From: Planctomycetota bacterium
GTDB lineage: Bacteria > Planctomycetota > UBA8742 > UBA2392
DNA length: 64,000 nt
NCBI GenBank assembly: GCA_019636215.1
Contig: JAHBXZ010000016.1
Span: 1-64,000, forward strand
Direction: 5' to 3'
Made by a program: the position numbers and the translations under genes. This document shows, one piece after another, positions 27,211-47,931 of the stretch (position 1 is the stretch's first letter; every line of letters begins with the position of its first letter). Below the pieces are notes generated by a model, which was not told the DNA's origin, made no database searches, and worked only from the letters and a program-made list of their open reading frames with translations.

Positions 27211-31608
<4,398 letters not shown>

Positions 31609-34572: not shown

Positions 34573-36432
34573 CTAACGCTTCAAATCACTGTACTGCCAC
34601 TCAAATGGCTCGTCCCAGTCCCCGGCGCTGTGGCAGTCGTCGCAGGCCTTGCCAATGGCGTTGAACCGGGCCCGGGCGTCTTCGCCGGTACGGGCATCCT
34701 TTAATGCGTCCACGTTGCGCTGCAGGTCGGACATGAACTTTTCCCACTTCGACTTGTCGGCGTGACTGGACTGGTTGGCCTCCCAGTGGGTACCGAAGAG
34801 CTTTACGGCTTCGCGCAGGTCCAAGTAGTTCTGCTCTGGTGTTCCCTCTGGCGTGCCCTCGCCCTCGCCGGCAGCGCGCAGCAGGTCACGCAGGCGAAAC
34901 TTGGACCGGTTCATCATGCGCCGGGTGGACTTCAGGTCTCGGGCTTCAATTGCAGAAGGCGACAGCATTGCCAACTTTGCAGTGTCAAACAGTGGTGCCG
35001 AAGGCGGCGCAGTCGTCTGCCTGGTCGGCAACTGGGCAACAGGGACGGCCAGTTTGGGTTCCAGCGCAATCTCGTCGTCAGCGTGCAGCTTGTGGCAGTC
35101 CGCGCACACCTGGCGCAGCTTGGCGCGCACGATGCGGCGCTCGGCATCGTTTGTGGTAGTGATGATCTCGTCGGCAAGCGACTCCATTTCTGAAATCCAC
35201 TTGTCCCACTGGGCCTTCTGTGCTTCTTCAATGTCATTTACGTACAGGCCGCGCAGGCGTATCGACAGCAACCGGATATCCCGCGCCGGCCCGTGCGCAT
35301 TGGCGGGCAGCGGATGCGTGGAATGACCCAGGGCCTCATTGCGCCGCCCGACCTGAGCCATCAACTTGTCCATTTCATCGGTGGCGAACCAGCCGGCCTT
35401 GGCCTTGTGGTCCTCCCAGACCGCCAGCAGCGTCAAGCCCGAAAGCATCACGACACCGACAATCGCGGCCATGCGCATGGGTTTGTGGAGCCTCGCCGGC
35501 TGGTCAGCCGCCGCTTCGACAAACGGCAGGCCGCCAATGGTCAGCAGGGCCAACAAGGGTGGTCCAAACAGGGCAAGTTGCTGTGCCAGACCTGATGGCA
35601 GCGCCTTCAGCAGCACGTACAACGACAGTGCAAACCACTCCGGGCGCGCCTGCGGGAAAGGCTCCCCGGGATTGCCCTGCAATCCAAGCGGGGCGCCAAA
35701 CAGCAACGAGACTACAGACAACAGCACAACAACCACTGCTGACACCCCAGCCATGGGCAGCCAGCCTCCGCTGTACCGTGCATCCCCCCACAGACCCCGC
35801 AACAGAAGCAGCAGCATGGCGGGAAGGATGATCACGTGAACGGAAAAGAATCGCGCCAGCGCCGCTGACCCGGACTCCCCGCCGCCAGTCGCCAATCGGC
35901 GAAGCCAATCCCCCACCAGGGGCGCCTCCGCCAGGTAACCCAGCCGGATGACCGTGCCGTGCAGCGCGTTCTGGTCGTAGGGCAAGAACTGGCCCGTAAG
36001 GCTGAATCCAACCACCAGCACCAGCAGCAGGCCCGCCCTCCACCAGCGTGCCTGCCCTGGTTTGCGATACAGTCCGCGCCAGACCAGCCAGAACACGTAG
36101 GCGCCGCAAAGCAGCACCATCAGATTCGCGCCGTGCCAATGCAGAGCCCGTGCAAACGCGCCCGCCGAACCGCGCTGCAACCAGTCCAGCGAGGCCGCCG
36201 CGTCATCAGGTGAGGCCCCATACCCCAGGGAGAGTCCAACACCTGTTCCTGCCAGAATCGCCAGGCAAGCCAGCAGGGCAGATGCCACCAGGGGCGATAC
36301 AGAATCCTGCTCGGGCTCCGGTGGTGGCGGCTTGCGGGTGACCTGCGAAGTGTTGCGCCGCGCAAGCTCTGCCTGCACCTCGGCCAGCAGTTCGTTCTGA
36401 ATCTGTGAAGTGGTCTGGGCCGGGTCACTCAT
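34573..36432 (-). CDS. cytochrome b fused to a di-heme cytochrome c domain
   Basis: 619 aa. After a ~45-residue Pro-rich N-terminus come about eight or nine membrane helices of the cytochrome b/b6 plus subunit IV type: 'LHWHGANLMVLL' (helix B), 'GQFLPYDQ', 'PLVGDWLRRL', 'ARFFSVHVIILPA' (helix D) and a Qo-type PEWF (264-267, variant of PEWY). H98 and H199 align with the heme bL ligands. The bH ligand positions are Tyr112 and Gly213/Leu214, so one b heme appears to be missing. The soluble C-terminus (from ~345) has two CxxCH sites, CADCH (443-447) and CDDCH (597-601), each near the end of a helical segment as in cytochrome c'-like domains. ATGA overlap with the Rieske gene indicates a quinol-oxidising complex. 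Confidence 0.88.
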   Translation of the reverse strand: MSDPAQTTSQIQNELLAEVQAELARRNTSQVTRKPPPPEPEQDSVSPLVASALLACLAILAGTGVGLSLGYGASPDDAAASLDWLQRGSAGAFARALHWHGANLMVLLCGAYVFWLVWRGLYRKPGQARWWRAGLLLVLVVGFSLTGQFLPYDQNALHGTVIRLGYLAEAPLVGDWLRRLATGGGESGSAALARFFSVHVIILPAMLLLLLRGLWGDARYSGGWLPMAGVSAVVVVLLSVVSLLFGAPLGLQGNPGEPFPQARPEWFALSLYVLLKALPSGLAQQLALFGPPLLALLTIGGLPFVEAAADQPARLHKPMRMAAIVGVVMLSGLTLLAVWEDHKAKAGWFATDEMDKLMAQVGRRNEALGHSTHPLPANAHGPARDIRLLSIRLRGLYVNDIEEAQKAQWDKWISEMESLADEIITTTNDAERRIVRAKLRQVCADCHKLHADDEIALEPKLAVPVAQLPTRQTTAPPSAPLFDTAKLAMLSPSAIEARDLKSTRRMMNRSKFRLRDLLRAAGEGEGTPEGTPEQNYLDLREAVKLFGTHWEANQSSHADKSKWEKFMSDLQRNVDALKDARTGEDARARFNAIGKACDDCHSAGDWDEPFEWQYSDLKR

Positions 36433-36995
36433 GTGGTGCGGGCCGTGCGTTCTTCCGTGCCGATAACATAGTCCTGCCACGCGACATGCAGCCAGGGCTG
36501 GCCGTCGCGGTCCTGTACTGTCAAGACCAGCGGGTCCAGGCCGCGAGGAGCGGGACCCGCAGTAACAGCACCGGCCTCGTCGAACTTGGCCTGATGGCAG
36601 GGGCAGACATACTGCTTGCCGGCAAGCTCAACCTCGCAGCCTGCGTGCGGGCAAATCGCGCTGAATGCGGCAAATGACTCGGGCGTTTCGCCACCCGCAA
36701 CCCGGGTGACGTACACGCGACGGCTGCGGTTCACGACGCGCCAGCCATCGCGCCGGGCCAGTGTAACCTCAAAGCGGGCGGGCGCACCGCGCTCCAGTTT
36801 CGACAATGAAGCCATCGCAGCCAGCGGCAACACAGCCTGCACGATGGACTCGCCGCCGGATTGCTGCCAGACAGCGACGCCACCCACGGCAGTGGCACCC
36901 AGCAGCACCCCCCCATGCACGACCACGCGCAGGAACTCGCGCCGGTCAGGCTGTTCAGGCACTGGTTGCTGCGGCTGCGTGCGGGCTTTGGGCAT
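36429..36995 (-). CDS. Rieske [2Fe-2S] protein
   Basis: 188 aa. The Rieske ligand boxes are intact: CPHAGC and CPCHQAKFD, with the disulfide-forming cysteines present. The N-terminus has a twin-arginine-like anchor (RREFLRVVVHGGVLLGATAVGG), so Tat export with a retained membrane anchor is expected. It would accept the first electron from quinol and pass it toward a cytochrome c. The start MPKARTQPQQ at 36995 lies four bases after the fur stop; the frame is open further upstream only because it is antisense-free coding shadow. Its TGA overlaps the cytochrome b ATG. The order fur-Rieske-cytochrome b/c suggests co-regulation by iron or redox. Confidence 0.93.
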   Translation of the reverse strand: MPKARTQPQQPVPEQPDRREFLRVVVHGGVLLGATAVGGVAVWQQSGGESIVQAVLPLAAMASLSKLERGAPARFEVTLARRDGWRVVNRSRRVYVTRVAGGETPESFAAFSAICPHAGCEVELAGKQYVCPCHQAKFDEAGAVTAGPAPRGLDPLVLTVQDRDGQPWLHVAWQDYVIGTEERTARTT

Positions 36996-36999
36996 GCGG

Positions 37000-37467
37000 T
37001 CAGCGCTGGCCCTGCTTCCAGCAATCCCGGCAGATGCCGAATATCTTCTGGCTGTGGTGCGTGGGATGAAACCCAAGGGAAGCCGCCACTTTATCCTGCA
37101 GGTTCTCCATCTCCTGGCTGTGGAACTCGATGATCTTGCCGCAACGTGTGCACATGCAGTGATCGTGGTGGTCGCGACCCTCGGAAAGCTCAAACACCCG
37201 GTGCGCGTCGCCAAAGTCATGCTGTTCAAGGATCCCCGCCTCTACCAGCACGCCCAGCGCGCGATAAATCGTGGCCTTGCTGACGCGCGGGCGCTCGTCG
37301 CGGAACTGGTCAACCAGGTCGTCAGCGCCAAAGTGAGTTTTCTCCATGCCCAGAATCTGCTCGACAATGCGCCGACGCTGGGCGGTCAGCTTGAGAGATT
37401 TACGCTGGAGATACGTGTCGAACTTGTCCAGCAGCACGGTTGTGTCGGATTTGGCTGCTCGCGGCAT
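37000..37467 (-). CDS. fur: Fur-family metalloregulator
   Basis: 155 aa. Winged-helix N-terminus ('LTAQRRRIVEQIL', 'VSKATIYRALGVLVEAGIL') and a metal-binding dimerisation domain with 'EGRDHHDHCMCTRCGKIIEF' and a second pair CRDC near the C-terminus. The paired CxxC and HHDH are typical of ferric uptake regulator or closely related proteins; PerR or Zur specificity cannot be excluded. It likely represses iron genes when loaded. It sits 4 bp upstream of the Rieske gene and 23 bp downstream of rbfA on the same strand, making it part of the respiratory operon and a candidate regulator of it. Confidence 0.92.
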   Translation of the reverse strand: MPRAAKSDTTVLLDKFDTYLQRKSLKLTAQRRRIVEQILGMEKTHFGADDLVDQFRDERPRVSKATIYRALGVLVEAGILEQHDFGDAHRVFELSEGRDHHDHCMCTRCGKIIEFHSQEMENLQDKVAASLGFHPTHHSQKIFGICRDCWKQGQR

Positions 37468-37490
37468 GGCTGATCGGCCCTGTGGCCGCC

Positions 37491-37877
37491 CTATTCGTCG
37501 TCTTGCCCGGGTTTGCTGTCCCTGCGGTCGGATGCCAGTGCGCTGTCAATCAGCTTAGACACTGAGTCCTGCTTTTCAATTCCGTCATCGTAAGTAAACG
37601 ACACTTTTGGCGCGACCCGGATCTTCAGGCCCTCAACCACATGACGCTGGACCATAGGCGTGACGGACTCGATGAACCGCGCCACGCTGCGCCGATCTGC
37701 CGCCGAACCCAGAACAGAATAGAAAACCCGCGCGTTTGTCAGGTCCTTACTGACCTTGACGCGCGTAATGGATATAAGGCCCTTCATTCGAGGATCTTTA
37801 AGTTCTGCTAGAAACAACTCGGCAACGTCTTGCCGGATGCGGCTCTGGATTCGTTGAATACGGCGGTCATCAGCCAT
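37491..37877 (-). CDS. rbfA: ribosome-binding factor A
   Basis: 128 aa, normal for RbfA, a KH-domain protein that assists 16S rRNA 5'-end maturation on the 30S subunit. Family hallmarks: 'RRIQRIQSRIRQDVAELFLAELKDPRM', 'ISITRVKVSKDLTNARVFYSV' and 'RVAPKVSFTYDDGIE'. The usual neighbours infB, truB and nusA are absent. First gene of a minus-strand series rbfA-fur-Rieske-cytochrome b. Divergent from the ABC importer operon across about 90 bp. Confidence 0.95.
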   Translation of the reverse strand: MADDRRIQRIQSRIRQDVAELFLAELKDPRMKGLISITRVKVSKDLTNARVFYSVLGSAADRRSVARFIESVTPMVQRHVVEGLKIRVAPKVSFTYDDGIEKQDSVSKLIDSALASDRRDSKPGQDDE

Positions 37878-37967
37878 AAGTTAGTTTGCCGTCGCAGGGG
37901 CAAAGTTCTTTCGTGAAGGCGTGGTTGTCCCATAATGGGAAATCCGGCGCCAGAGGTGGAAGCCCTA

Positions 37968-40496
37968 ATGTGGATCAAGCGTTCGCTGGTCGTACTTCCC
38001 GTGCTGCTGCTGCTGTTTCTGCTGCAGAGCATCTTCTGGGTACCGGGTACTCAGCAGGCCGCCGATAACGAAGGCCGGCTCGACCGGCTGGTGTGGTACC
38101 TCGGGGCTAACCCCGAGGACATGAACATCTACCAGTCCACATCGGCCAACGACAGCGACATATCCGCCCACCTGAACGAAGGACTTCTGCAGTACGATGA
38201 GATGTACCAGATTGTCCCGCACATGGCCGACACCGCCGTGGTGAACCACGAAGTCACCATGCTGGCGGGAGCCTCGGTCAGTAATGCCGAGCTGCTGCGC
38301 GCCCTGGAAGACATTTATGGACTGGGCTCTGCCAGCATCGAGACGGTCAAAGACTGGAAGCTCAAGGGTGGCCCGGCCTGGGAGGCCGCTGCCGCCGACC
38401 CCGCTCTGGCCGCAACACGCAGCTTTGCCGAGGGCGCCCGCCAGGTGCGCGTTTACCTGATGTCCAAGCCCCGCAAGGACCGCGTGGCCAGCGCTGTGGA
38501 TCCCTCTATGGCCACCAAGGTCGGCCAAAAGCTGGGGGCTGGCCTGCATGACGCGGTTGACGCAGGGGCACTGCTTGCGAAGCTGGACCAGGCAGACAAA
38601 GAACGCCTGGCTGGTGTGCTGAAGACTGATGTCGGCGGCCTGCCGGCGGCATTGGGCAAAATGCTGACCGACGCGGGGTTCACGCCGCTGGTTCACAACC
38701 CCATTGTCGAAATGAACATCCGCAAAGGCATTCACTGGGTAGACGGGCCTTTCTGGGGCCCGGTCAAGAACACCTGGCTGGTCACCGTAGACGGCAACGA
38801 GGCAGATTTTGTTACCGCCGACAGCGAACTGGACGCCATCAAACTTGTCACGGATCGGCTGGGGCTTGCCACCAAGCCTGTGGTAACTGCACGCAACTAC
38901 GTCGAGTCCAATGACGCAGCCACGAACGAGGTGTTTGGTGAAAAAGGCGGCCCCTGGTGGGGCCGGGGACCCCAGTTCACCAGCCGTGACATCAAGCGCA
39001 CGGTTGAGCTGTTGAAAGACAACGACTTCGCCAGCCCGCGCATGTCCACCTGGGCCGACGTGAAAGAAGTTCGCACGTTTGCCGACCCTCACCGCGTACA
39101 GGTCGTTTACGGGCGGTTGTTCTCACCCGCGCTGTCAGCCCTGACCGGCGCCTATCTGCCCTACCATCACTGGAACGACACGGCCTGGACACTGGAAGCC
39201 ATCCGCAAGGGTCGCGGCCCCAAAGACGTCGGCGTAAAACCGGAGGACTACAAACCGGCAGGGTACCTGCGTGCCAAGAGCCGCGATTACTCACGCAAGC
39301 CCAGCAGCATGGGCCCGATGGTGCTTTACCCGTTGAACGGCACCGACCTTCCGCTTTGGCAGAACGGCAAGCTGGTTCGACTGATGCGCAACGAGTTCTA
39401 CGTTGACCGCAAACCCGAGTACAAGTGGATCGACTACTACATCTTCAGCCCGAACATGGGCCGCGAAACAGCCGAGATGGTCTTCAACACCGGCGGCATT
39501 GACCTGTACGGCTGCGACCCCCACCAGGTGCGCCGCTATGAGCAGTACGGCGATCGCTACTATGTGATCAAGCGCCAGACCACGACATACGCCTACCTGG
39601 GTTTCAACACAGAGCGCGAGCCCGTCAGCAGCCCGCTGGTGCGGCGCGCGCTGGCCATGGCGCTGGATGTCGACAAAATCATCGACAAGATTGCCTGGGG
39701 ACAGGGCGAGCGCATTTCCGGCCCGGGCTACCCGGTGCTGCCGTGGTATGACCACAACTACAGGTTCGACCACAAGTGGCGTTCGGGTGACAAGACCGGC
39801 CAGACGGAATCCCTGAAGTTCGTGCCGTTCAACGTGGCAGAGGCCAAAGCGCTGCTGGTTGAGGACGGCTATGACTACAGTTCGGGCATTCCGACCAAGG
39901 GCGGCAAGGCCCTTGAGCTGACTATCACCATGCACCCCGAAAACCCCATTCGCAAAGACATCGTTCTGTACGCGCAGCAGCGCTGGCAGGAATTGGGGAT
40001 CAAGGTGAAGATTGAAGAACACGAGTGGAACGTGTACCTGTCACAGTTCATCCGCCCGCGCAACTTCACGGTTTGCGTGCTTGGCTGGTCCGGTGGCCTT
40101 GACTTTGACAAACGCCAGTTGTGGCACGGCAAGTTTCTGGCGCCGCGTGGTCTGAACTTTGCCGGCTTCAAGAACGCCGAGGCTGACAAGGTGATGGACG
40201 ACATTCTGCTGGAGTATGACTTTGACAAACAAGTGCAGATGTCGCATCGCATGTTCAAGCTGATTGCCGACGAACTGCCGTACATCTTCCTTTACTCGGG
40301 TATCGGCACGACGGTAGTTGATCCACGGGTAGTGTGGCGCCGCGAAGTAGAGAAAGACGGCAAGAAGATGTTTGTGGACAGCCCGCTGACGCACGACAAG
40401 ATCCGCACGGCCCGTGCGCCGTTCGGGTTCTGGATGCACGAACTGAAGCGAGTGCCCGAGAAGCCCCAGTGGAAGGACGAGGACTACCGCAACTAG
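37968..40496 (+). CDS. oligopeptide-type ABC substrate-binding protein with insertions
   Basis: 842 aa; family 5 binding proteins are usually 500-600. N-terminal membrane anchor or uncleaved signal (WIKRSLVVLPVLLLLFLLQSIFW). Family 5 segments: 'LNEGLLQYDE', 'IRKGIHWVDG', 'FTSRDIKRTVELLKD', 'AYLGFNTEREPVSSPLVRRALAMALDVDKII' and 'LELTITMHPENP.RKDIVLYAQQRWQELGIKVKIE'. The extra length lies mainly between residues ~85 and ~250, an Ala/Lys/Asp-rich helical stretch, plus a second insert after 'WVDG'. It probably captures peptides or similar ligands outside the membrane for the two permeases that follow (12 bp gap). ATG 37968 is preferred because of GAGGTGGAAG upstream; ATG 37935 is the alternative. 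Confidence 0.88.
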   Translation: MWIKRSLVVLPVLLLLFLLQSIFWVPGTQQAADNEGRLDRLVWYLGANPEDMNIYQSTSANDSDISAHLNEGLLQYDEMYQIVPHMADTAVVNHEVTMLAGASVSNAELLRALEDIYGLGSASIETVKDWKLKGGPAWEAAAADPALAATRSFAEGARQVRVYLMSKPRKDRVASAVDPSMATKVGQKLGAGLHDAVDAGALLAKLDQADKERLAGVLKTDVGGLPAALGKMLTDAGFTPLVHNPIVEMNIRKGIHWVDGPFWGPVKNTWLVTVDGNEADFVTADSELDAIKLVTDRLGLATKPVVTARNYVESNDAATNEVFGEKGGPWWGRGPQFTSRDIKRTVELLKDNDFASPRMSTWADVKEVRTFADPHRVQVVYGRLFSPALSALTGAYLPYHHWNDTAWTLEAIRKGRGPKDVGVKPEDYKPAGYLRAKSRDYSRKPSSMGPMVLYPLNGTDLPLWQNGKLVRLMRNEFYVDRKPEYKWIDYYIFSPNMGRETAEMVFNTGGIDLYGCDPHQVRRYEQYGDRYYVIKRQTTTYAYLGFNTEREPVSSPLVRRALAMALDVDKIIDKIAWGQGERISGPGYPVLPWYDHNYRFDHKWRSGDKTGQTESLKFVPFNVAEAKALLVEDGYDYSSGIPTKGGKALELTITMHPENPIRKDIVLYAQQRWQELGIKVKIEEHEWNVYLSQFIRPRNFTVCVLGWSGGLDFDKRQLWHGKFLAPRGLNFAGFKNAEADKVMDDILLEYDFDKQVQMSHRMFKLIADELPYIFLYSGIGTTVVDPRVVWRREVEKDGKKMFVDSPLTHDKIRTARAPFGFWMHELKRVPEKPQWKDEDYRN

Positions 40497-40508
40497 GCCC
40501 AATACCCG

Positions 40509-41504
40509 ATGATTTCCTACATTATCCGGCGTTTGCTTCAGATGGGGATCACGCTGTTTGTGGTCAGCATTCTCAGTTTTCTGCTGGTTGTGCTGGCACC
40601 TGGCGACCCGTTTGCAGGGCACCTGGACCCCAACGCCCTGCCCGCAGACATCGAACGCCAGCGCGATACGGGTGGCTACGATGATCCTGTGGTCACCAAA
40701 TACCTGACGTTTTACGGCAACTTTTTTTCAGACCTTGGCGCGGCATTTTCGCCCTCCGCCGGATACGAGTGGAAGCTGGTCAGCAACATCACCAAAGAGC
40801 CCGTGCTGCCGACCATGTGGCGCAAGATGCTGGTGACACTGCCGCTGGTGATACTGACGACCATCATTGTCTGGACCTTGTCGTTCCCCATCGGCATTTT
40901 CTCGGCGCTACGGCGCGGCACGTTCAAGGATCAGACCATTACCGTGCTGTCCTATACGCTGATTGCCTTTCCCGGGTTCTGGCTGGCATTGCTGGTGATC
41001 AACTTCTTCACCGTGCAGCTTGGCATACCCGTCATCTCGCCGGAAACGCTAGGCGTGGAACTTGAAGGCCCAAGAGCCTTCTTTGACCGCACCTGGCACG
41101 TCGCCGTGCCCGGCATCGTCGGCTCGTTCGGCGGCATTGCGGTGATGACCCGCTATGTGAAGGGTCAGATGCTTGAAGTTCAAGGGCAGGACTACATCCG
41201 CACCGCCAAGGCAAAAGGCCTAGATCGGGACACCGTGAACTACAAGCACGCCCTGCGCAATGCCAGCCTGCCGTTCATCACGATGCTGGCAGGCCTTCTG
41301 CCCAGCCTGTTCGGCGGGTCAGTGATCTTTGAAAGCATCTATTCCTGGCCGGGGCTTGGGCGCTGGTTTCTGGAAGCGGTGTTCACCCGCGACGCTTTCA
41401 TCGTCATGGCGAACCTGTTTGTGGGGTCAGGCCTGACCCTGATGGGCATTCTGGTTTCGGATCTTCTGTACAGCGTGGCGGACCCGCGCATCAAGCTGGG
41501 ATAG
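40509..41504 (+). CDS. DppB/OppB-type ABC permease
   Basis: 331 aa. First permease of an oligopeptide-type importer, six membrane helices. Starts with the family signature 'MISYIIRRLLQMGITLFVVSILSFLL' and 'LAPGDPF'. The EAA-like coupling loop is 'GQDYIRTAKAKGLDRDTVNYKHALRNASLPFITML'. About 60 extra residues sit between the first helix and the second ('LTFYGNFFSDLGAAFSPSAGYEWKLV'), normal for this family. Located between the binding protein (12 bp) and the second permease (17 bp) on the same strand. No ATP-binding genes (dppD/dppF) follow. Confidence 0.94.
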   Translation: MISYIIRRLLQMGITLFVVSILSFLLVVLAPGDPFAGHLDPNALPADIERQRDTGGYDDPVVTKYLTFYGNFFSDLGAAFSPSAGYEWKLVSNITKEPVLPTMWRKMLVTLPLVILTTIIVWTLSFPIGIFSALRRGTFKDQTITVLSYTLIAFPGFWLALLVINFFTVQLGIPVISPETLGVELEGPRAFFDRTWHVAVPGIVGSFGGIAVMTRYVKGQMLEVQGQDYIRTAKAKGLDRDTVNYKHALRNASLPFITMLAGLLPSLFGGSVIFESIYSWPGLGRWFLEAVFTRDAFIVMANLFVGSGLTLMGILVSDLLYSVADPRIKLG

Positions 41505-41521
41505 ACAGAACGAATACTCCG

Positions 41522-43864
41522 ATGAGCGAGCAACGCAAACCAACTTCACCGCTGCGCGACGCATTGCGCCTGTTCTTCCGTAACAAGCCAGCGGTCGCCG
41601 CCGCGATTGCAATTTTTGTCCTGGCCTGCGTGGCCGTGTCGGGCGAAATCCTGACCGGCAAGCCGCCCACCGAAGAAGACCGCCAGCAGATTAAGGAAAG
41701 CATCTACGTCGGCGACAAGGTCGAGATCAAGCGCAACGAACTGGCCAGGAGTGACCCGCTGGAAACGGTGCTTGACGAAAAGCTGCTGCCCCCGTTCAGC
41801 CGGGGCGACGGCACCGGCAAGTTCTACCTCCTGGGCACTGACCACCTGGGCCGCAACGTTGCTTCGCGGCTTTGGGCCGGCAGCACGATCAGCCTGACTA
41901 TCGGGTTCCTTGCCGTGGGCATCATGGCGCTCCTGGGCATCACTCTGGGCGGCATTGCCGGCTTCTGGGGCCGCGAGCGGGTGCGGCTGCCGTTCTTTGC
42001 GATGCTGCTGCTGGCGCTGGGCGGCGCGATCGCATACGGGGCGGACTTTGACTGGCTGGCCTGGCTTCTGCTTGCGCTTTCCTGCGCTGCATTTGTCCTG
42101 CAGTTGGCCGTTGTGGCCATGGGACGTCGCTGGCGGCCGCTGGCCATCTTCGGGGTGATCTTGGCCATGTTTCTGGCCGTCAACGGGTACAACCAGTACA
42201 TCGAGCGCACAGACCCCAATGGCCGACTGATGCGGCAGGCCCGCGTGATCGAGTCCCACGCTCGCGAAACCATGGTGCACACACGAGCCTTTGGCGTTGA
42301 TGTCAAGGACATCGACGACCGCGTGGCCACCGCCCGCAGCAGGGCATGGCGTATCCGCGGCCAGGCCGATGTCGAGGTCATGTTCAGCAAGCTTGACGTC
42401 GAAGTCGCCCGCTTTGCTTTCATGGAGAACGAGGCCGGCATCGAACTTCTGGAACGAACCATCGTCGAACGCGAGGCCCGGGCCGAGCACATGGACCGCA
42501 TTGACCGTCCTGCGCGCGCCAAGACAGAGCGCGAAAGCGTCGCCCGGGAGAAGGAGTCCCTGGCTGAGCTCAAGCGCGCCACCCAGGGGCTCAAGGACGC
42601 CCTTGTGCTTGCCGAGCTTGAACTTGCCGAGCAGCAGGCCCGACGCGAGCTGGCCCAACACGATGCCCGCATTGCCGAGGTCCATGACGCGACCGAACCG
42701 CCGGGATCCAACACAGAAAAACTCAAACCCCTGCAGGACGAACGCGCCAAGTTCTTGTGGCCCGTGCATGTGGCGAAACTGGAGATTACATCCGCCAAGG
42801 CGTCCCATGCCGCCGCCGCGCGTGAACGCGAAATCGCCACGCAAGAGGAGAAGATCAAGACCCTGACAGAAAAGGACGACACGAAGCCGGCAGCCTTGGA
42901 TGCCGAGCGCAAGAAGCTGGCCAGTCTCAAGGAAGGCCTTGTCGCATTGAAGACCGCTGCCAAGTCGGCTGAATCAGCGCTTGAGGAAGGCCGCAAGGGC
43001 GCCGAAGCCGGCAAGGAACTTTCGGCTGAGCAGACCAAGGAGATTGGCGAACTCACCCTGCAGAAGCACAGCGAGATGCTGGAGCGCAGGGCAACCATGC
43101 GTCGGGACATCCTCGACAGCTTCAAGGCCCGGGCCGATACACTGTTTTCAAGCGAGCTGAACGGCGCCAAGTTGCTGTCCGGCCACTGGCGCTATGGCAC
43201 GTACCGTGTGACGCGTCACTTCATTGCGGCAACCTTGATGTGGCTTGGCCTGCTGGTCGCCGTGCTGATGATTGCGGGCACCGCCCAGGGCGCGATCCAG
43301 GACGTAAAGGGGCCGCTGCAGAAGCTGTTCCTGCCCACCATGACCGTGGACGACCTGGTGATGCGCTTTACCGAAATCATGATCACCATCCCCACGCTGT
43401 TCCTGATCCTGGCGGTGCTGGCCCTGTTCGAGCGCGACGTGTACATCGTGATGGCAGTGATCGGCCTGACCGGCTGGATGGGCATGACGCGCTTTGTACG
43501 CGCCGAGATTCTGTCGTTGCGCGAGCAGGACTTTGTGCAGGCGGCGCGCGCTCTTGGAGTGTCGGACTACCGCATCATCTGGCGTCACCTGGTTCCCAAT
43601 GCCATCAGCCCGGTGCTGGTGGCCGCGACCATCGGCGTTGCTGGCGCGGTCCTGGCCGAAAGTACACTCAGCTTCCTGGGGATCGGCGCCAAGGCTGACC
43701 AGCCCACCTGGGGCCAGATTCTGAACGACGGGCGCGCGTACATGACCGACGCCTGGTGGCTGATGGTAATTCCGGGCTTTGCCATTCTGGTCACGGTGCT
43801 GTCCTTCAACCTCCTGGGCGAAGGCCTGCGCGAGGCATTCAATCCGAAGCTGCGCGGTCGATAA
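41522..43864 (+). CDS. DppC/OppC-type ABC permease with a ~455-residue insertion
   Basis: 780 aa; normal DppC is about 300. The N-terminal third is standard up to 'GTDHLGRNVASRLWAGSTISLTIGFLAVGIMALLGITLGGIAGFWG' (ends ~147). The standard protein resumes at 'VDDLVMRFTEIMITIPTLFLILAVLALF' (from V609), through the EAA loop 'REQDFVQAARALGVSDYRIIWRHLVPNA' and 'AESTLSFLGIG'. In between are two or three extra membrane helices (~153-225), a long charged coiled coil (~270-545, Lys/Glu/Ala-rich) and one more helix (~565-590). The insertion point is exactly the loop between permease helices 2 and 3. The frame is unbroken, so this is not a sequencing artefact of simple frameshift type. Confidence 0.9.
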   Translation: MSEQRKPTSPLRDALRLFFRNKPAVAAAIAIFVLACVAVSGEILTGKPPTEEDRQQIKESIYVGDKVEIKRNELARSDPLETVLDEKLLPPFSRGDGTGKFYLLGTDHLGRNVASRLWAGSTISLTIGFLAVGIMALLGITLGGIAGFWGRERVRLPFFAMLLLALGGAIAYGADFDWLAWLLLALSCAAFVLQLAVVAMGRRWRPLAIFGVILAMFLAVNGYNQYIERTDPNGRLMRQARVIESHARETMVHTRAFGVDVKDIDDRVATARSRAWRIRGQADVEVMFSKLDVEVARFAFMENEAGIELLERTIVEREARAEHMDRIDRPARAKTERESVAREKESLAELKRATQGLKDALVLAELELAEQQARRELAQHDARIAEVHDATEPPGSNTEKLKPLQDERAKFLWPVHVAKLEITSAKASHAAAAREREIATQEEKIKTLTEKDDTKPAALDAERKKLASLKEGLVALKTAAKSAESALEEGRKGAEAGKELSAEQTKEIGELTLQKHSEMLERRATMRRDILDSFKARADTLFSSELNGAKLLSGHWRYGTYRVTRHFIAATLMWLGLLVAVLMIAGTAQGAIQDVKGPLQKLFLPTMTVDDLVMRFTEIMITIPTLFLILAVLALFERDVYIVMAVIGLTGWMGMTRFVRAEILSLREQDFVQAARALGVSDYRIIWRHLVPNAISPVLVAATIGVAGAVLAESTLSFLGIGAKADQPTWGQILNDGRAYMTDAWWLMVIPGFAILVTVLSFNLLGEGLREAFNPKLRGR

Positions 43865-43883
43865 CCGCGGCGGCCGACACCCT

Positions 43884-45254
43884 ATGAAAATCCTGCTTGC
43901 CGACGACGAACGCGGTATCCGACTGACCCTTGCCGAGGACCTGGAGGACGCAGGGCATGAAGTGGTTGCCGTCGAAGACGGCGAACTGGCGATCCGGGAG
44001 CTCAAGAAGCAGAAGTTTGATTGCCTGATCAGCGATGTCGTGATGCCAAAGGTAGATGGCATGAGCCTGTTGCGTTTTGCGCGCGAACAGGTGCCCGACA
44101 TCATCAGCATCATGATCACCGGCAACGCGACGGTTGAGCGCGCGCTGGAAGCCATGAAGCTGGGCGCGAAGGACTTCGTGGAGAAGCCCTTCAACAATGA
44201 AAAAATTGTGCTGCTGCTCAACGGCTATGGCGAGAGCCAGCAGACCGGCCGCAAGTACCAGAAGCTGGTTGAGGAAGTAAAGACTGAGTTCAAGGTCAAC
44301 CAGATGGTCGGCAACAGCCCGCAGATGAAGCGGCTGTACGACGACATCAAGACCGTGGCAGAGTCAGAATTTTCGGTGCTGATCCGTGGTGAAAACGGCA
44401 CCGGCAAAGAGGTCATCGCGACAACGCTGCACCAGCTTTCGCCGCGCCAGAAGGGGCCCTTGATCAAGGTGGCCTGCCACATCAGCAACGTGAACCTTCT
44501 GGAAGACGAGCTGTTCGGGCATGAACCGGGCGCCTTCACTGGCGCCACAAGCCGCCGCATTGGCCGCTTCGAGCAGGCCCAGGGCGGAACCATTTACCTG
44601 GACGACATTGACGACATGCCCGTGGATACCCAGGCAAAACTGCTGCGTGTGCTGCAGGAGCGCGAGATTGAGCGCCTTGGCGGCGATCACCCGGTGAAGG
44701 TGGACATCCGCGTGATTGCCTCGACCAAAGTTGACCTGCGCGAGCGAGTACGCGACGGAAAGTTCCGGGAAGACCTGTACCATCGCATCAACGTGATTGA
44801 CCTGAACGTGCCGCCGCTGCGCGAGCGCGAGGGCGACATCCCCGCGCTGGTGGATCACTTTCTGTCTCGCTACGCCACCGGCAAGCTGCTTGCCGTGGAG
44901 CCGGAGGCAATGGCCGCACTGGTTTCGTACCGCTGGCCGGGCAACGTGCGCGAACTTCAGCACGCCGTGCAGCGTGCGATTGCATTCGGCGGGCACACCG
45001 GCGCTTTAAAGCGCGAACACTTCCTGCGCGACTTCAAGGATGCACTGCCCGAGGGCACTTCGGGCGCGACTCCCGGCGATGACCGGCGTGCGCTGAAGGA
45101 AGTGGTGGCTGCCGCCGAGAAAGCCCACATCCAGAACGTGATGCGCATGACCAAGGGCAAGATTGAGGAAGCAGCGAACATCCTTGGCATCTCACGCAAG
45201 AACCTGTGGGAGAAGCGCAAGCAGTACGGGCTGCTGGACGGAGATGACGAGTGA
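43884..45254 (+). CDS. NtrC-family sigma54-dependent response regulator
   Basis: 456 aa. Receiver domain with D7/D8, phospho-acceptor D51 (LISDVVMP), the conserved Thr and Lys ([12 protein letters not shown]). AAA+ central domain: Walker A GENGTGKE, intact sigma54-contact loop GAFTGA, Walker B IYLDDIDD (Asp in place of the usual Glu of LDEI) and '[21 protein letters not shown]'. C-terminal Fis-type helix-turn-helix '[25 protein letters not shown]'. It should activate sigma54 promoters when phosphorylated, but no histidine kinase is adjacent. ATG 43884 is 19 bp after the permease stop and its own stop overlaps ccmB by GTGA, so it heads the cytochrome maturation operon or continues the transporter operon. 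Confidence 0.95.
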
Positions 45255-45922
45255 GCGCCCTGGGCGCGCTGCTCAGGCGTGAGCTCATCGTCGAGCTGCG
45301 CACAAAGTCCCTGCTCTCTTCCATGGCGCTGTTTGCGGCGCTTTGCGTCATGATCGTCGGCCTTGGTGTCCGTGGGCTCAATGGCGACGAGACGTTTCAT
45401 CGCTTTGTGCTGGCCATGCTCTGGGTCTGCAGCCTGTTTGCCTGCGTTGTGGGCCTGAATCGCGCCGCGGTTTCTGATCATCGGCGTGCCTTCTTCAGCG
45501 CGCTGCTGCTTGCCCCGCACGATGCCGCCAACATCTACGCATCACGCCTTGTCGCTGTGCTGGCCGTACTGCTGGCCACACAGGCGCTAATGGTCGCGAT
45601 GGCCGTGCCCATGCTCAAGCTTGCGTTCTTTGACCAGCCGTTGATGCTGCTGGTAGTGCCCATGGCCGACATTGGAATCCTGGCGCCGGGCGTGCTGTTG
45701 GCCTCCGTGACTGGCCGCATCCGGGGCGGCGAGGCGCTGCTGACCATCCTGCTGGTGCCCGTGATTGTGCCGGTGTTTCTTGGGGCGGCCGGCGCGACTG
45801 ACGCTCTGCAGGCCGGGCTTGGCTTTCGCGGGGCGATGCCGTACCTGTTGCTGCTGGGAATTTGCGACACTATGTTCGCGGCGCTGGGTGTGATGCTGTT
45901 CGGGAAGCTCAACGAGACATGA
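45251..45922 (+). CDS. ccmB: heme exporter protein B
   Basis: 223 aa, six membrane helices. CcmB is the membrane subunit of the CcmABC heme-handling transporter used in System I cytochrome c maturation. Family features: N-terminal 'ALLRRELIVELRTKSLLSSMALFAAL', 'LLAPHDAANIYASRL' and 'LGILAPG'-like 'DIGILAPGVLLASVTGRIRGGEALLTILLVPVIVPVFLGA'. GTG start overlaps the regulator stop (GTGA); stop overlaps ccmC (ATGA). The ATPase gene ccmA is not in the window. Confidence 0.93.
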   Translation: MSALGALLRRELIVELRTKSLLSSMALFAALCVMIVGLGVRGLNGDETFHRFVLAMLWVCSLFACVVGLNRAAVSDHRRAFFSALLLAPHDAANIYASRLVAVLAVLLATQALMVAMAVPMLKLAFFDQPLMLLVVPMADIGILAPGVLLASVTGRIRGGEALLTILLVPVIVPVFLGAAGATDALQAGLGFRGAMPYLLLLGICDTMFAALGVMLFGKLNET

Positions 45923-46659
45923 AAGCAGATTCATCCAAGGCGTGGGTGGTTGCCATTGTGCTGGCGATCCTCGGATTTGCCGGGGTTCAGGTCACCCTGT
46001 ACCTGTCGTACTTCTATACGCCAACCCAGGTCACGCCTGGAACGCTGTGGGTGGTCACGCCCGATGGCGGGGCCCCGATCAGCCTGTACGAGAGCTACCG
46101 TATCTTCTTCATCCACCTGCCCAGCGCCTATGCGACGGCGTCCTGCTGTGCCCTGACAGCGCTGGGCGGCGTGCTGCTCTTGCTCACCAGAAAGCCGGTC
46201 TGGGAGTCGCTGGTCGTCAGTGCCGCTGAAGTTGGCCTTTGCGTGGGTGCGCTTGTGCTGCTTACCGGCACCCTGTGGGCCGATTATGCCTGGGGCAGCG
46301 GCCGCCTGGGCAGCGGCTGGAACTGGGAGCCCCGGCTCACCACGATGCTGATCCTGTGGCTGGCGTTTGCCGCGCTGGTGGTCGTGAGGCGCGCCGTCGA
46401 GATTCAGCAGTTACGAACCCAGGTCACAGCCGTTTACGGCATCCTGCTCGGGCCTCTGTACCCGCTGGTCAGCAAGGCCATCGAAATCAACCAGACCAGC
46501 CATCCGCGCAATTTCAGCGACCTGATGAGCGCCCCGGAAATCGCCCTGACCAAGCAGATCGCAAGCGTTGGTGTGCTTGTCGCACTGCTGGCATTGGTCG
46601 CGTTGCGTGTTCAATGGAATGAACTGGCCCGGCAGATCCGCATGGAGCGTTCCGCGTGA
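45919..46659 (+). CDS. ccmC: heme exporter protein C
   Basis: 246 aa, six membrane helices. CcmC binds heme through two histidines and the tryptophan-rich WWD loop and hands it to CcmE. Histidines are in 'FIHLPSAYAT' and 'INQTSHPRNF'. The WWD loop reads 'WADYAWGSGRLGSGWNWEPRLTTML', with Glu where most CcmC have Asp (WxWDxRLT). Coupled by ATGA to ccmB and by GTGA to the ccmD-like gene. ccmE and ccmF are not in the window. Confidence 0.93.
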   Translation: MKADSSKAWVVAIVLAILGFAGVQVTLYLSYFYTPTQVTPGTLWVVTPDGGAPISLYESYRIFFIHLPSAYATASCCALTALGGVLLLLTRKPVWESLVVSAAEVGLCVGALVLLTGTLWADYAWGSGRLGSGWNWEPRLTTMLILWLAFAALVVVRRAVEIQQLRTQVTAVYGILLGPLYPLVSKAIEINQTSHPRNFSDLMSAPEIALTKQIASVGVLVALLALVALRVQWNELARQIRMERSA

Positions 46660-47024
46660 AGAAACCTGGTTGTCGGACTATGCTCTGGTTGGCAGCGACT
46701 CTGTCGGTGATTGCGATTGCCTCACCGATTTTTGCCGACTCCAAGAGCGAGACGCTGCGGCAGCCCGAGCCCGCGGGGCCTGTTCTCTCCAGCGAATTGG
46801 AAGCGCGCCGCGCGCTGGAAAAGGAGTACCGCGCAGAGCTGGAAAAACGCGTGGCCGCCGAAAAGTCCAGCATGCAAGCGTCGCTGACCAGCCTGTGGAT
46901 GGCAAATGCTGCCGTGTGGGCGGTGCTGCTGGGATTTGTGGTCTATCAGGCATTGGGCGTTCGCAAGCTTGCCGCCGAGCTTCAGCGACTGAAAGCACGG
47001 CACCCCGGTGAAGGCGGGGCATGA
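46656..47024 (+). CDS. CcmD-like membrane protein with signal peptide
   Basis: 122 aa. An N-terminal hydrophobic signal (MLWLAATLSVIAIASPIFA), a short Glu/Arg-rich coiled coil (SELEARRALEKEYRAELEKRV) and a C-terminal membrane helix followed by basic residues (SLWMANAAVWAVLLGFVVYQALGVRKLAAELQRLK). The final part matches the pattern of CcmD, which stabilises the CcmABC/CcmE complex; CcmD is usually only 40-70 aa, so the exported N-terminal half is an addition. GTG start overlaps the ccmC stop. Confidence 0.75.
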   Translation: MKKPGCRTMLWLAATLSVIAIASPIFADSKSETLRQPEPAGPVLSSELEARRALEKEYRAELEKRVAAEKSSMQASLTSLWMANAAVWAVLLGFVVYQALGVRKLAAELQRLKARHPGEGGA

Positions 47025-47055
47025 CCTCATCGAGCTGGCCCCTTTCAAGAAACCC

Positions 47056-47931
47056 ATGGCTGAACCGCTGCTGACGGATCGCGAGATCACGCGCCTGCAC
47101 CGGCTGCGGCTTGCCGGCGCGCGAGTCGTGCGGGCAGCAGCACGGGGCGAGCGACTGTCGCGCCAGCTTGGCGCGGGTCAGGAATTCGCGGCCCACCGCG
47201 CCTACGCCCGGGGCGACGACCTGCGCCGCGTGGACTGGAACGTTTACGGTCGATTGGGGCAGCTGTTCGTCAAACTGTTTGAGGCACCTGGTCGCCTGCG
47301 GGTTCTGGTGGCCATCGACAACGCCCCCACCATGGACTTCGGCGCTTCCTCCAAGTGGCTGGCGGCCCGCCGTGCCGCGGCCGCCGCAGCGATCATCGCC
47401 CTTGGAGGTGCGGATCGCATCTGGTTGGGCACCCTGGACAGCGAGCCCCGGGCGTTTGAGGGCAGTGCGGAATCCCGCATCCTCTCCGCACTGGCGGAAC
47501 TGCAAGTTTCCGCGCGGCCAGCCAGGGCCGCGCCAGCATGGATGCCGCTGCTGGCATCCGGGGGTACGGACACTGTACTGCTGCTTTTCAGCGACCTGCA
47601 GCAGGTCGATGTGCCGCTGGGTCTCTTGCGCGAGTGTGCCCGACAGGGCGCGCGGGCCATGTGCCTTTGCGTACACGCCCCCGAAGAACTGAGCCCGAAG
47701 ATGGGCGGCTATGCGCGACTGAATGCGCCCGGCCACGAGTCGCTGAAGCTGCGCATCGATGCCAGGGTAATCGATGCTTACAAGGCCGAAGTCGCGCGCT
47801 ATCGCGAAGCCGCGGCCCATGCTGCTGCGGCAACTGGCGCGACTTATCTGGACATCTCCAGCGATGCCCCGCTGGACCCCTTTCTGGCTGCACTTTCGCG
47901 AAGGGGCCTGTTGGCCTCGCGTCACGGATAG
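47056..47931 (+). CDS. DUF58 (vWA-like) protein
   Basis: 291 aa. DUF58 signature 'GQEFAAHRAYARGDDLRRVDWNVYGRLGQLFVKLFEAP' near residue 45. The following vWA-like segment reads AIDNAPTMDFG, so the DxSxS metal site is altered (D-N-A-P-T). DUF58 proteins usually work with a MoxR-type AAA+ ATPase in assembling or maturing envelope complexes; no MoxR gene is present here. ATG 47056 is used; GTG 47008, overlapping the ccmD-like gene, is possible. Followed after 20 bp by the BatA-like gene. Confidence 0.85.
   Translation: MAEPLLTDREITRLHRLRLAGARVVRAAARGERLSRQLGAGQEFAAHRAYARGDDLRRVDWNVYGRLGQLFVKLFEAPGRLRVLVAIDNAPTMDFGASSKWLAARRAAAAAAIIALGGADRIWLGTLDSEPRAFEGSAESRILSALAELQVSARPARAAPAWMPLLASGGTDTVLLLFSDLQQVDVPLGLLRECARQGARAMCLCVHAPEELSPKMGGYARLNAPGHESLKLRIDARVIDAYKAEVARYREAAAHAAAATGATYLDISSDAPLDPFLAALSRRGLLASRHG

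Follow-up and report, generated by a model that had tools for sequence, protein, structure and literature searches.

The closest described relatives of the permease considered here are the DppC/OppC proteins of peptide importers, such as those of E. coli DppABCDF (PDB 8z1v-8z1z) and M. tuberculosis OppABCD/DppABCD, which have six transmembrane (TM) helices and a short loop between TM2 and TM3. In E. coli DppC the TM1-TM2 and TM3-TM4 loops are periplasmic, and the coupling helix between TM4 and TM5 lies at the ATPases (PMC12136057); because of the sidedness of the two former loops, the TM2-TM3 loop must be cytoplasmic. Elaborations of transporter permeases are known from other systems. In the maltose importer, which is of type I, the P2 domain of the permease MalF lies in the periplasm and contacts MalE (PMC3150292), the accessible text on GlnPQ and OpuA describes binding domains fused to the permease (PMC8025302, PMC11065425), and the accessible portions of two reports on MmpL proteins assign a role in oligomerization to their coiled-coil inserts (PMC12183618, PMC12501195).

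We analyzed a 64,000-nucleotide stretch of planctomycete DNA (hereafter the window), taken from a draft genome of 34 contigs that is 91% complete, in which an initial annotation had pointed to a DppC-type permease interrupted by a long insertion. The gene (41522-43864, forward strand) runs for 780 codons in one frame without internal stop, and is the last of three transport genes whose order, binding protein, then DppB, then DppC, is kept in 14 relatives. The operon and the parts of its DppC are as follows.

37935..40496, + strand: peptide-type substrate-binding protein (SBP_bac_5, PF00496), 853 aa
40509..41504, + strand: DppB-type permease of ordinary layout, 331 aa (PF19300 and PF00528)
41522..43864, + strand: DppC-type permease with insertion, 780 aa (Pfam, alignment, model)
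41522..41974, + strand: permease core part 1, with N-terminus, TM1, periplasmic loop and TM2, residues 1-151 (PF12911, alignment to 8z1v_B)
41975..43345, + strand: whole insertion between permease helices 2 and 3, residues 152-608 (alignment, hydropathy)
41987..42121, + strand: two-helix hairpin TMa-TMb, residues 156-200 (AlphaFold2; common to DppC of Nitrospirota and Desulfobacterota)
42131..42211, + strand: TMc, first helix of the nested unit, residues 204-230 (hydropathy, AlphaFold2)
42203..43213, + strand: predicted periplasmic helical bundle, residues 228-564 (AlphaFold2, conservation profile)
43220..43294, + strand: TMd, last helix of the nested unit, residues 567-591 (hydropathy, AlphaFold2)
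43346..43861, + strand: permease core part 2, TM3-TM6 with the EAA-type coupling motif, residues 609-780 (PF00528, match to 8z1y_B)

Assignment of the protein to the DppC type, as first proposed, is borne out by Pfam matches over cut-off to OppC_N (PF12911; residues 9-55, 26.8 bits against 23.9) and BPD_transp_1 (PF00528; residues 608-778, 98.5 bits against 26.4), and by the AlphaFold2 model, which superimposes on the DppC chain 8z1y_B with Z 22.5, rmsd 3.7 and 35% identity over 286 of 289 residues; in the model, the DppC fold is intact on both sides of the insertion. None of the NCBIfam equivalogs Opp4C, Opp3C, DppC and NikC is matched over its curated cut-off, the top score being that of Opp4C (255 vs 350 bits). 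Alignment with E. coli DppC (8z1v_B) pairs residues 71-150 with chain positions 49-127 and residues 609-778 with positions 130-299, leaving some 451-458 extra residues between near-adjacent DppC positions. The insertion therefore does lie between helices 2 and 3 with normal permease on either side, as the initial annotation had it, at 41975-43345 rather than 41965-43345. Neighbors kept in relatives are a cytochrome b gene, Fur, the binding protein, DppB, DppC, a sigma-54 response regulator, CcmB, CcmC and DUF58, where the names given to these neighbors, CcmB above all, are our own reading of the sequences. Two DppC orthologues (L021 and L022, genomes G047 and G256) also have an extra insertion of about 50 residues in the periplasmic TM1-TM2 loop. 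Elsewhere in the window, positions 27211-31608 of the reverse strand encode a 1465-aa protein that, as judged by eye, starts with a Ser/Thr kinase-like region and also has a TM helix and many TPR-like repeats in a row.

Within the insertion, hydropathy gives three peaks upstream and one downstream of a charged region, and AlphaFold2 places membrane helices at residues 156-173, 177-200 and 204-230 on the upstream side and at 567-591 on the downstream side. The DppC permease is accordingly predicted to cross the membrane ten times, as against the usual six. Extra helices had been expected from the outset, as two or three before the charged part and one after it; the count settles at exactly three and one. 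The charged part had been described as a coiled coil of about 275 residues. It is indeed long, helical and charged, yet it extends over some 340 residues (228-564, with 62 K+R and 63 D+E) and is predicted to form a bundle of four to six helices joined by short turns, the packing of which we infer from helix lengths and turns. In the window protein the modeled bundle helices span residues 232-265, 274-326, 330-389, 396-450, 456-496 and 516-546, with block pLDDT mostly 85-97, a lowest block of 74 near residues 391-400 and a whole-model pTM of 0.74, and a short orthologue of 651 aa is modeled with the same frame but four bundle helices, at block pLDDT mostly >85. As both models consist of consecutive helices (six or four) with short turns, the far-projecting coiled coil originally envisaged is not upheld, and the topology and structure prediction that had been recommended for the insertion yields a helical bundle framed by three plus one TM helices. 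GC content of the insertion resembles that of its flanks.

Conservation is unevenly spread over the bundle. Helices 1, 2 and 6 together with residues 547-566 have majority residues in 47-62% of sequences at near-full occupancy, compared with 26-32% at an occupancy of 0.63-0.75 for helices 3-5, and residues G234, R312, R320, R527, Y561 and Q589 are invariant; as judged from these alignments, the bundle has a conserved base and a tip that is variable in length. The whole insertion measures about 318 to 594 residues across relatives, and long and short bundles coexist within one genus. Codons of the bundle are, by the usual comparative measures, under purifying selection: pN/pS is 0.22-0.57, and the closest pair has a dN/dS of about 0.17 (0.08/0.48), other pairs, in which dS is near saturation, giving about 0.15-0.4.

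Three TM helices precede the bundle and one returns the chain to the level of the cytoplasmic TM2-TM3 loop, and hence the bundle should be periplasmic. The charges of the connecting loops agree with this placement and follow the positive-inside rule: in all 16 proteins there are 2-3 K/R in each of the loops TM2-TMa and TMb-TMc, and none in the TMa-TMb loop. Of 15 bundle proteins amenable to scoring, 14 have three helices before the bundle and one after it; the exception is L020, whose third upstream peak lies below threshold, and L021 was left out of the scoring as a motif was not found. The hydrophobicity of TMc is no more than moderate, and the topology would flip if the count were off by a single helix. 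As predicted from sequence, the bundle should lie in the periplasm beside the mouth of the permease, beyond the reach of the ATPases. We consider it highly probable that the DppC architecture is as described, and are similarly confident in the helix count, bundle fold and sidedness as predicted.

When the insertion alone was used as query it was found in 15 of 294 planctomycete genomes, all within the GTDB family of the window, and a profile of the nested unit (TMc, bundle and TMd) recovered 15 of the 16 genomes of that family as well as the sole other genome of the order that was searched, which belongs to another family. The profile found no such unit in the three other families of the class, and elsewhere in a sample of 392 planctomycete genomes the profile returned nothing convincing and no stand-alone copies, a weak match in G303 (E 9e-5) extending over 63 columns. 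Site and order of parts are the same in the 15 family genomes, carriers including Planctomycetota MAGs such as JABTUE01, JAHBYA01 and QEVF01, and in the one order-level relative. Conservation in related genomes, which the initial annotation had named as a check, is thus found, the carriers being this relative and 14 further MAGs from the family. The insertion-bearing DppC is a real, conserved variant of a known transporter.

The search with the insertion alone that had also been suggested points to no described family in Pfam or the PDB, and matches only related planctomycetes. The nested unit has no Pfam match over cut-off, a PDB profile search with the insert returned only a designed binder (E 0.091), and Foldseek with the model gave nothing better than E 0.18 outside permeases of the DppC/OppC type. 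We took a lone match to Hanta_nucleocap (E 0.0072, in one of 16 members) as coiled-coil noise, and treated likeness to F-BAR and SH3BP5 (VIA-align Z ~10, rmsd 15-32) as generic helix matches. Literature searches, to which most subscription journals lay outside coverage, found no paper that combines DppC with a coiled-coil insertion and, for insertions in planctomycete oligopeptide permeases, a lone match to an unrelated phytoplasma paper. The original remark that no described oligopeptide permease of this layout was known is accordingly upheld in that these searches matched the insert to no described family, but must be tempered, as DppC proteins of Nitrospirota and Desulfobacterota widely carry a smaller insertion, a two-helix hairpin, at this position.

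The nearest DppC proteins from outside the planctomycetes fall into two classes, which at the site in question have either a gap of about 0-3 residues or an insertion of 58-65 residues that forms a two-helix hairpin. Planctomycete DppC stripped of the nested unit aligns with the hairpin form over 69 of 69 columns including the tail adjoining TM3 (hhalign probability 94.9%, E 4.8e-8); for the hairpin without this tail, the probability is 44% and the score 20.2, compared with at most 10.9 in 30 column shuffles. A tree of permease cores unites the bundle-bearing proteins in one clade with support of 100/100; its deeper branching is weak, and the rows of L126 and of some planctomycetes are long. 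Hairpin and no-hairpin forms are intermixed in it with 8 changes, a pattern that could reflect either a single gain followed by several losses or more than one gain. The operons of Nitrospirota and Desulfobacterota encode an anchored binding protein (QSxFWVP motif), DppB, DppC, DppD and DppF. As the relatives' operons thus encode a matching anchored binding protein along with DppBCDF, it is the whole transporter that is related, and not the permease alone. On this evidence, the insertion arose in two steps, of which the older placed the membrane hairpin TMa-TMb, common to Nitrospirota and Desulfobacterota, in the cytoplasmic TM2-TM3 loop, and the younger, in one planctomycete order, inserted a TM-bundle-TM unit with a bundle of about 340 residues behind the hairpin.

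There is no ATPase gene in the operon. The sole ATPase with an oligo_HPY domain found in the window's genome is a 644-aa fusion of DppD and DppF (L141:4864-6798 on the reverse strand; G000 contig C30, about 172863-174797) that lies on a different contig from the operon and away from every permease locus, and a single fused DppDF locus occurs in nearly all of the 16 family genomes, each of which has 2-3 permeases of the OppC_N type. Because it is the only candidate found in a genome that is 91% complete, we infer that the fused DppDF powers the insertion-bearing permease. The two other DppC-type permeases of this genome are devoid of the insertion, and its six SBP_bac_5 proteins are distributed over three loci. 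In one stretch (G000 contig C3, 50862-60633) four SBP_bac_5 genes stand in a row upstream of a Dpp-type permease pair, and PF00528 domains also occur in unusually long frames of 749, 816 and 1088 aa (G000 contigs C30, 2873-4624, and C34, 16035-18648).

The binding protein of the operon has an N-terminal TM anchor, MWIKRSLVVLPVLLLLFLLQSIFWVP, with a motif common to the binding proteins of about 715 aa in Nitrospirota and Desulfobacterota. It was found in 15 of the 16 family genomes, in open frames mostly of 839-874 aa, and in the window it is some 100-130 residues longer than its relatives in other phyla, with extra segments relative to those of about 715 aa at residues 222-236, 276-322 and 330-349 or thereabouts. 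An anchored binding protein occurs in bundle-less relatives too, and thus anchoring needs no bundle. Distances in the bundle base correlate with those in binding-protein residues 90-345 at r 0.95, with those in other transporter parts at r 0.85-0.94, and with those in five flanking genes at 0.41-0.65, in a test that took in the transporter genes and neighbors only. By this measure, the insertion shows itself to have evolved together with its transporter. We do not take the correlation as proof of contact, as high values are shared by the entire transporter and the cassette may have been exchanged as a block. Across positions 34573-47931 of the window and loci L031-L044, the binding protein, DppB and DppC share a distance pattern unlike that of five syntenic neighbors. 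Together with the long and short bundles within one genus, this pattern hints that the transporter cassette may have been exchanged in place.

Taken as a whole, the reading that best accommodates these observations, and to which we would give about even chances, is that of a C permease remodeled from six to ten helices by two nested insertions, with the bundle as a docking platform. The conserved base of the bundle would help to keep in place or position the binding protein, itself enlarged and anchored in the membrane, in the manner of MalF P2 with the maltose-binding protein; by this analogy, docking or retention of the operon's own binding protein at the base is a tentative proposal that falls somewhat short of even. 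It draws support from a binding protein that is both anchored and larger than in bundle-less relatives, and from bundle distances that track the binding protein and the transporter far better than the flanking genes. Counting against it, on the sequences compared, are the variation in insertion length (about 318-594) unmatched by any change in the binding protein, as no relation between the two lengths was seen among relatives, and the order-level relative G166, for which we found no close match to the binding protein and whose DppC sits at a contig end. The bundle might instead act as a periplasmic scaffold unconnected with the binding protein, through which the transporter oligomerizes or is tethered to peptidoglycan or to some other protein of the envelope. 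This fits a conserved base with a variable tip, as in a stalk, and finds a parallel in the MmpL coiled coils, large helical extracytoplasmic inserts that oligomerize according to the accessible portions of those reports (PMC12183618, PMC12501195); yet strong length variation among close relatives argues against a strut of fixed distance, and among the neighboring genes tested, none beyond the transporter tracks the bundle distances. We regard a scaffold of this kind as unlikely. Rather less credit is due to the view that the insertion is a tolerated decoration, folded and stable, with no specific role in transport. Such a decoration would account for large changes in length between relatives and for fast change in sequence, as most near pairs are 52-66% identical in the bundle but 97-98% identical in the C core. 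However, 15 of the 16 family genomes and a sister family have the insertion, and the lone family genome without it is also without the operon's binding protein; moreover, purifying selection, invariant residues and a conserved base speak of constraint, although folding alone could be its cause.

Two further explanations fare worse. That the insertion is a cytoplasmic coiled coil which reaches the ATPases, as the initial annotation suggested, or another cytosolic protein, was considered in light of its start and end in a cytoplasmic loop, and of an unusual ATPase, the single fused DppD-DppF encoded elsewhere. It is nevertheless very improbable: with three TM helices before the helical part and one after it, the loop sides established for DppC (PMC12136057), and charges that fit a periplasmic bundle in 16/16 proteins, the topology argues for the opposite side of the membrane. 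An assembly chimera or annotation artefact, to which the draft state of the genome in 34 contigs might have lent weight, is excluded for practical purposes by the same architecture in 15 other genomes, the single open frame and selection at the codon level. Returning to the docking platform, it may, as a more doubtful extension, be built into the permease in order to capture its own anchored binding protein and so keep it apart from the other permeases that share the sole fused DppD-DppF.

Type I importers evidently have a six-helix core that can take up four more TM helices and a large, predicted periplasmic domain at a normally cytoplasmic loop, with no visible damage to the permease. Because the hairpin-only intermediate and the end state are both extant, the course of domain gain is open to direct reading. 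If it is true that the bundle holds the binding protein, this locus would also be a test case for how binding proteins are kept apart among importers that possibly rely on a common ATPase.

Compared with known DppC/OppC permeases, the window protein has the same fold, OppC_N and BPD_transp_1 domains, coupling motif and operon partners, but ten helices, a predicted periplasmic bundle and no ATPase genes in its operon. DppC proteins with the hairpin, from MAGs of Nitrospirota, Desulfobacterota and Deferribacterota (for example L046, L053 and L072), agree with it in operon type, insertion site and a homologous hairpin, and differ in having 58-65 extra residues with no bundle, DppD and DppF adjoining, and a binding protein of about 715 aa. 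GlnPQ and OpuA likewise keep a binding protein near the permease; as far as their accessible descriptions extend, theirs is fused, whereas the window encodes its anchored binding protein separately, and the insert is no binding domain. The coiled-coil domains of MmpL4/5/10 are, in the portions available, similarly long helical extracytoplasmic inserts in a transporter, but belong to unrelated RND-type exporters and oligomerize or form a tube. MalF P2 resembles the bundle in being a large domain inserted in the permease of a type I importer and standing in the periplasm, a position that is predicted for the window protein; the permease family and the insertion site are different, P2 contains beta sheets whereas the bundle is modeled as all helical, and no homology was seen between them at the level of sequence, the nested unit being without match in Pfam or the PDB. 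Should the bundle indeed hold the binding protein, it would constitute an independent, all-helical solution to the task performed by MalF P2.
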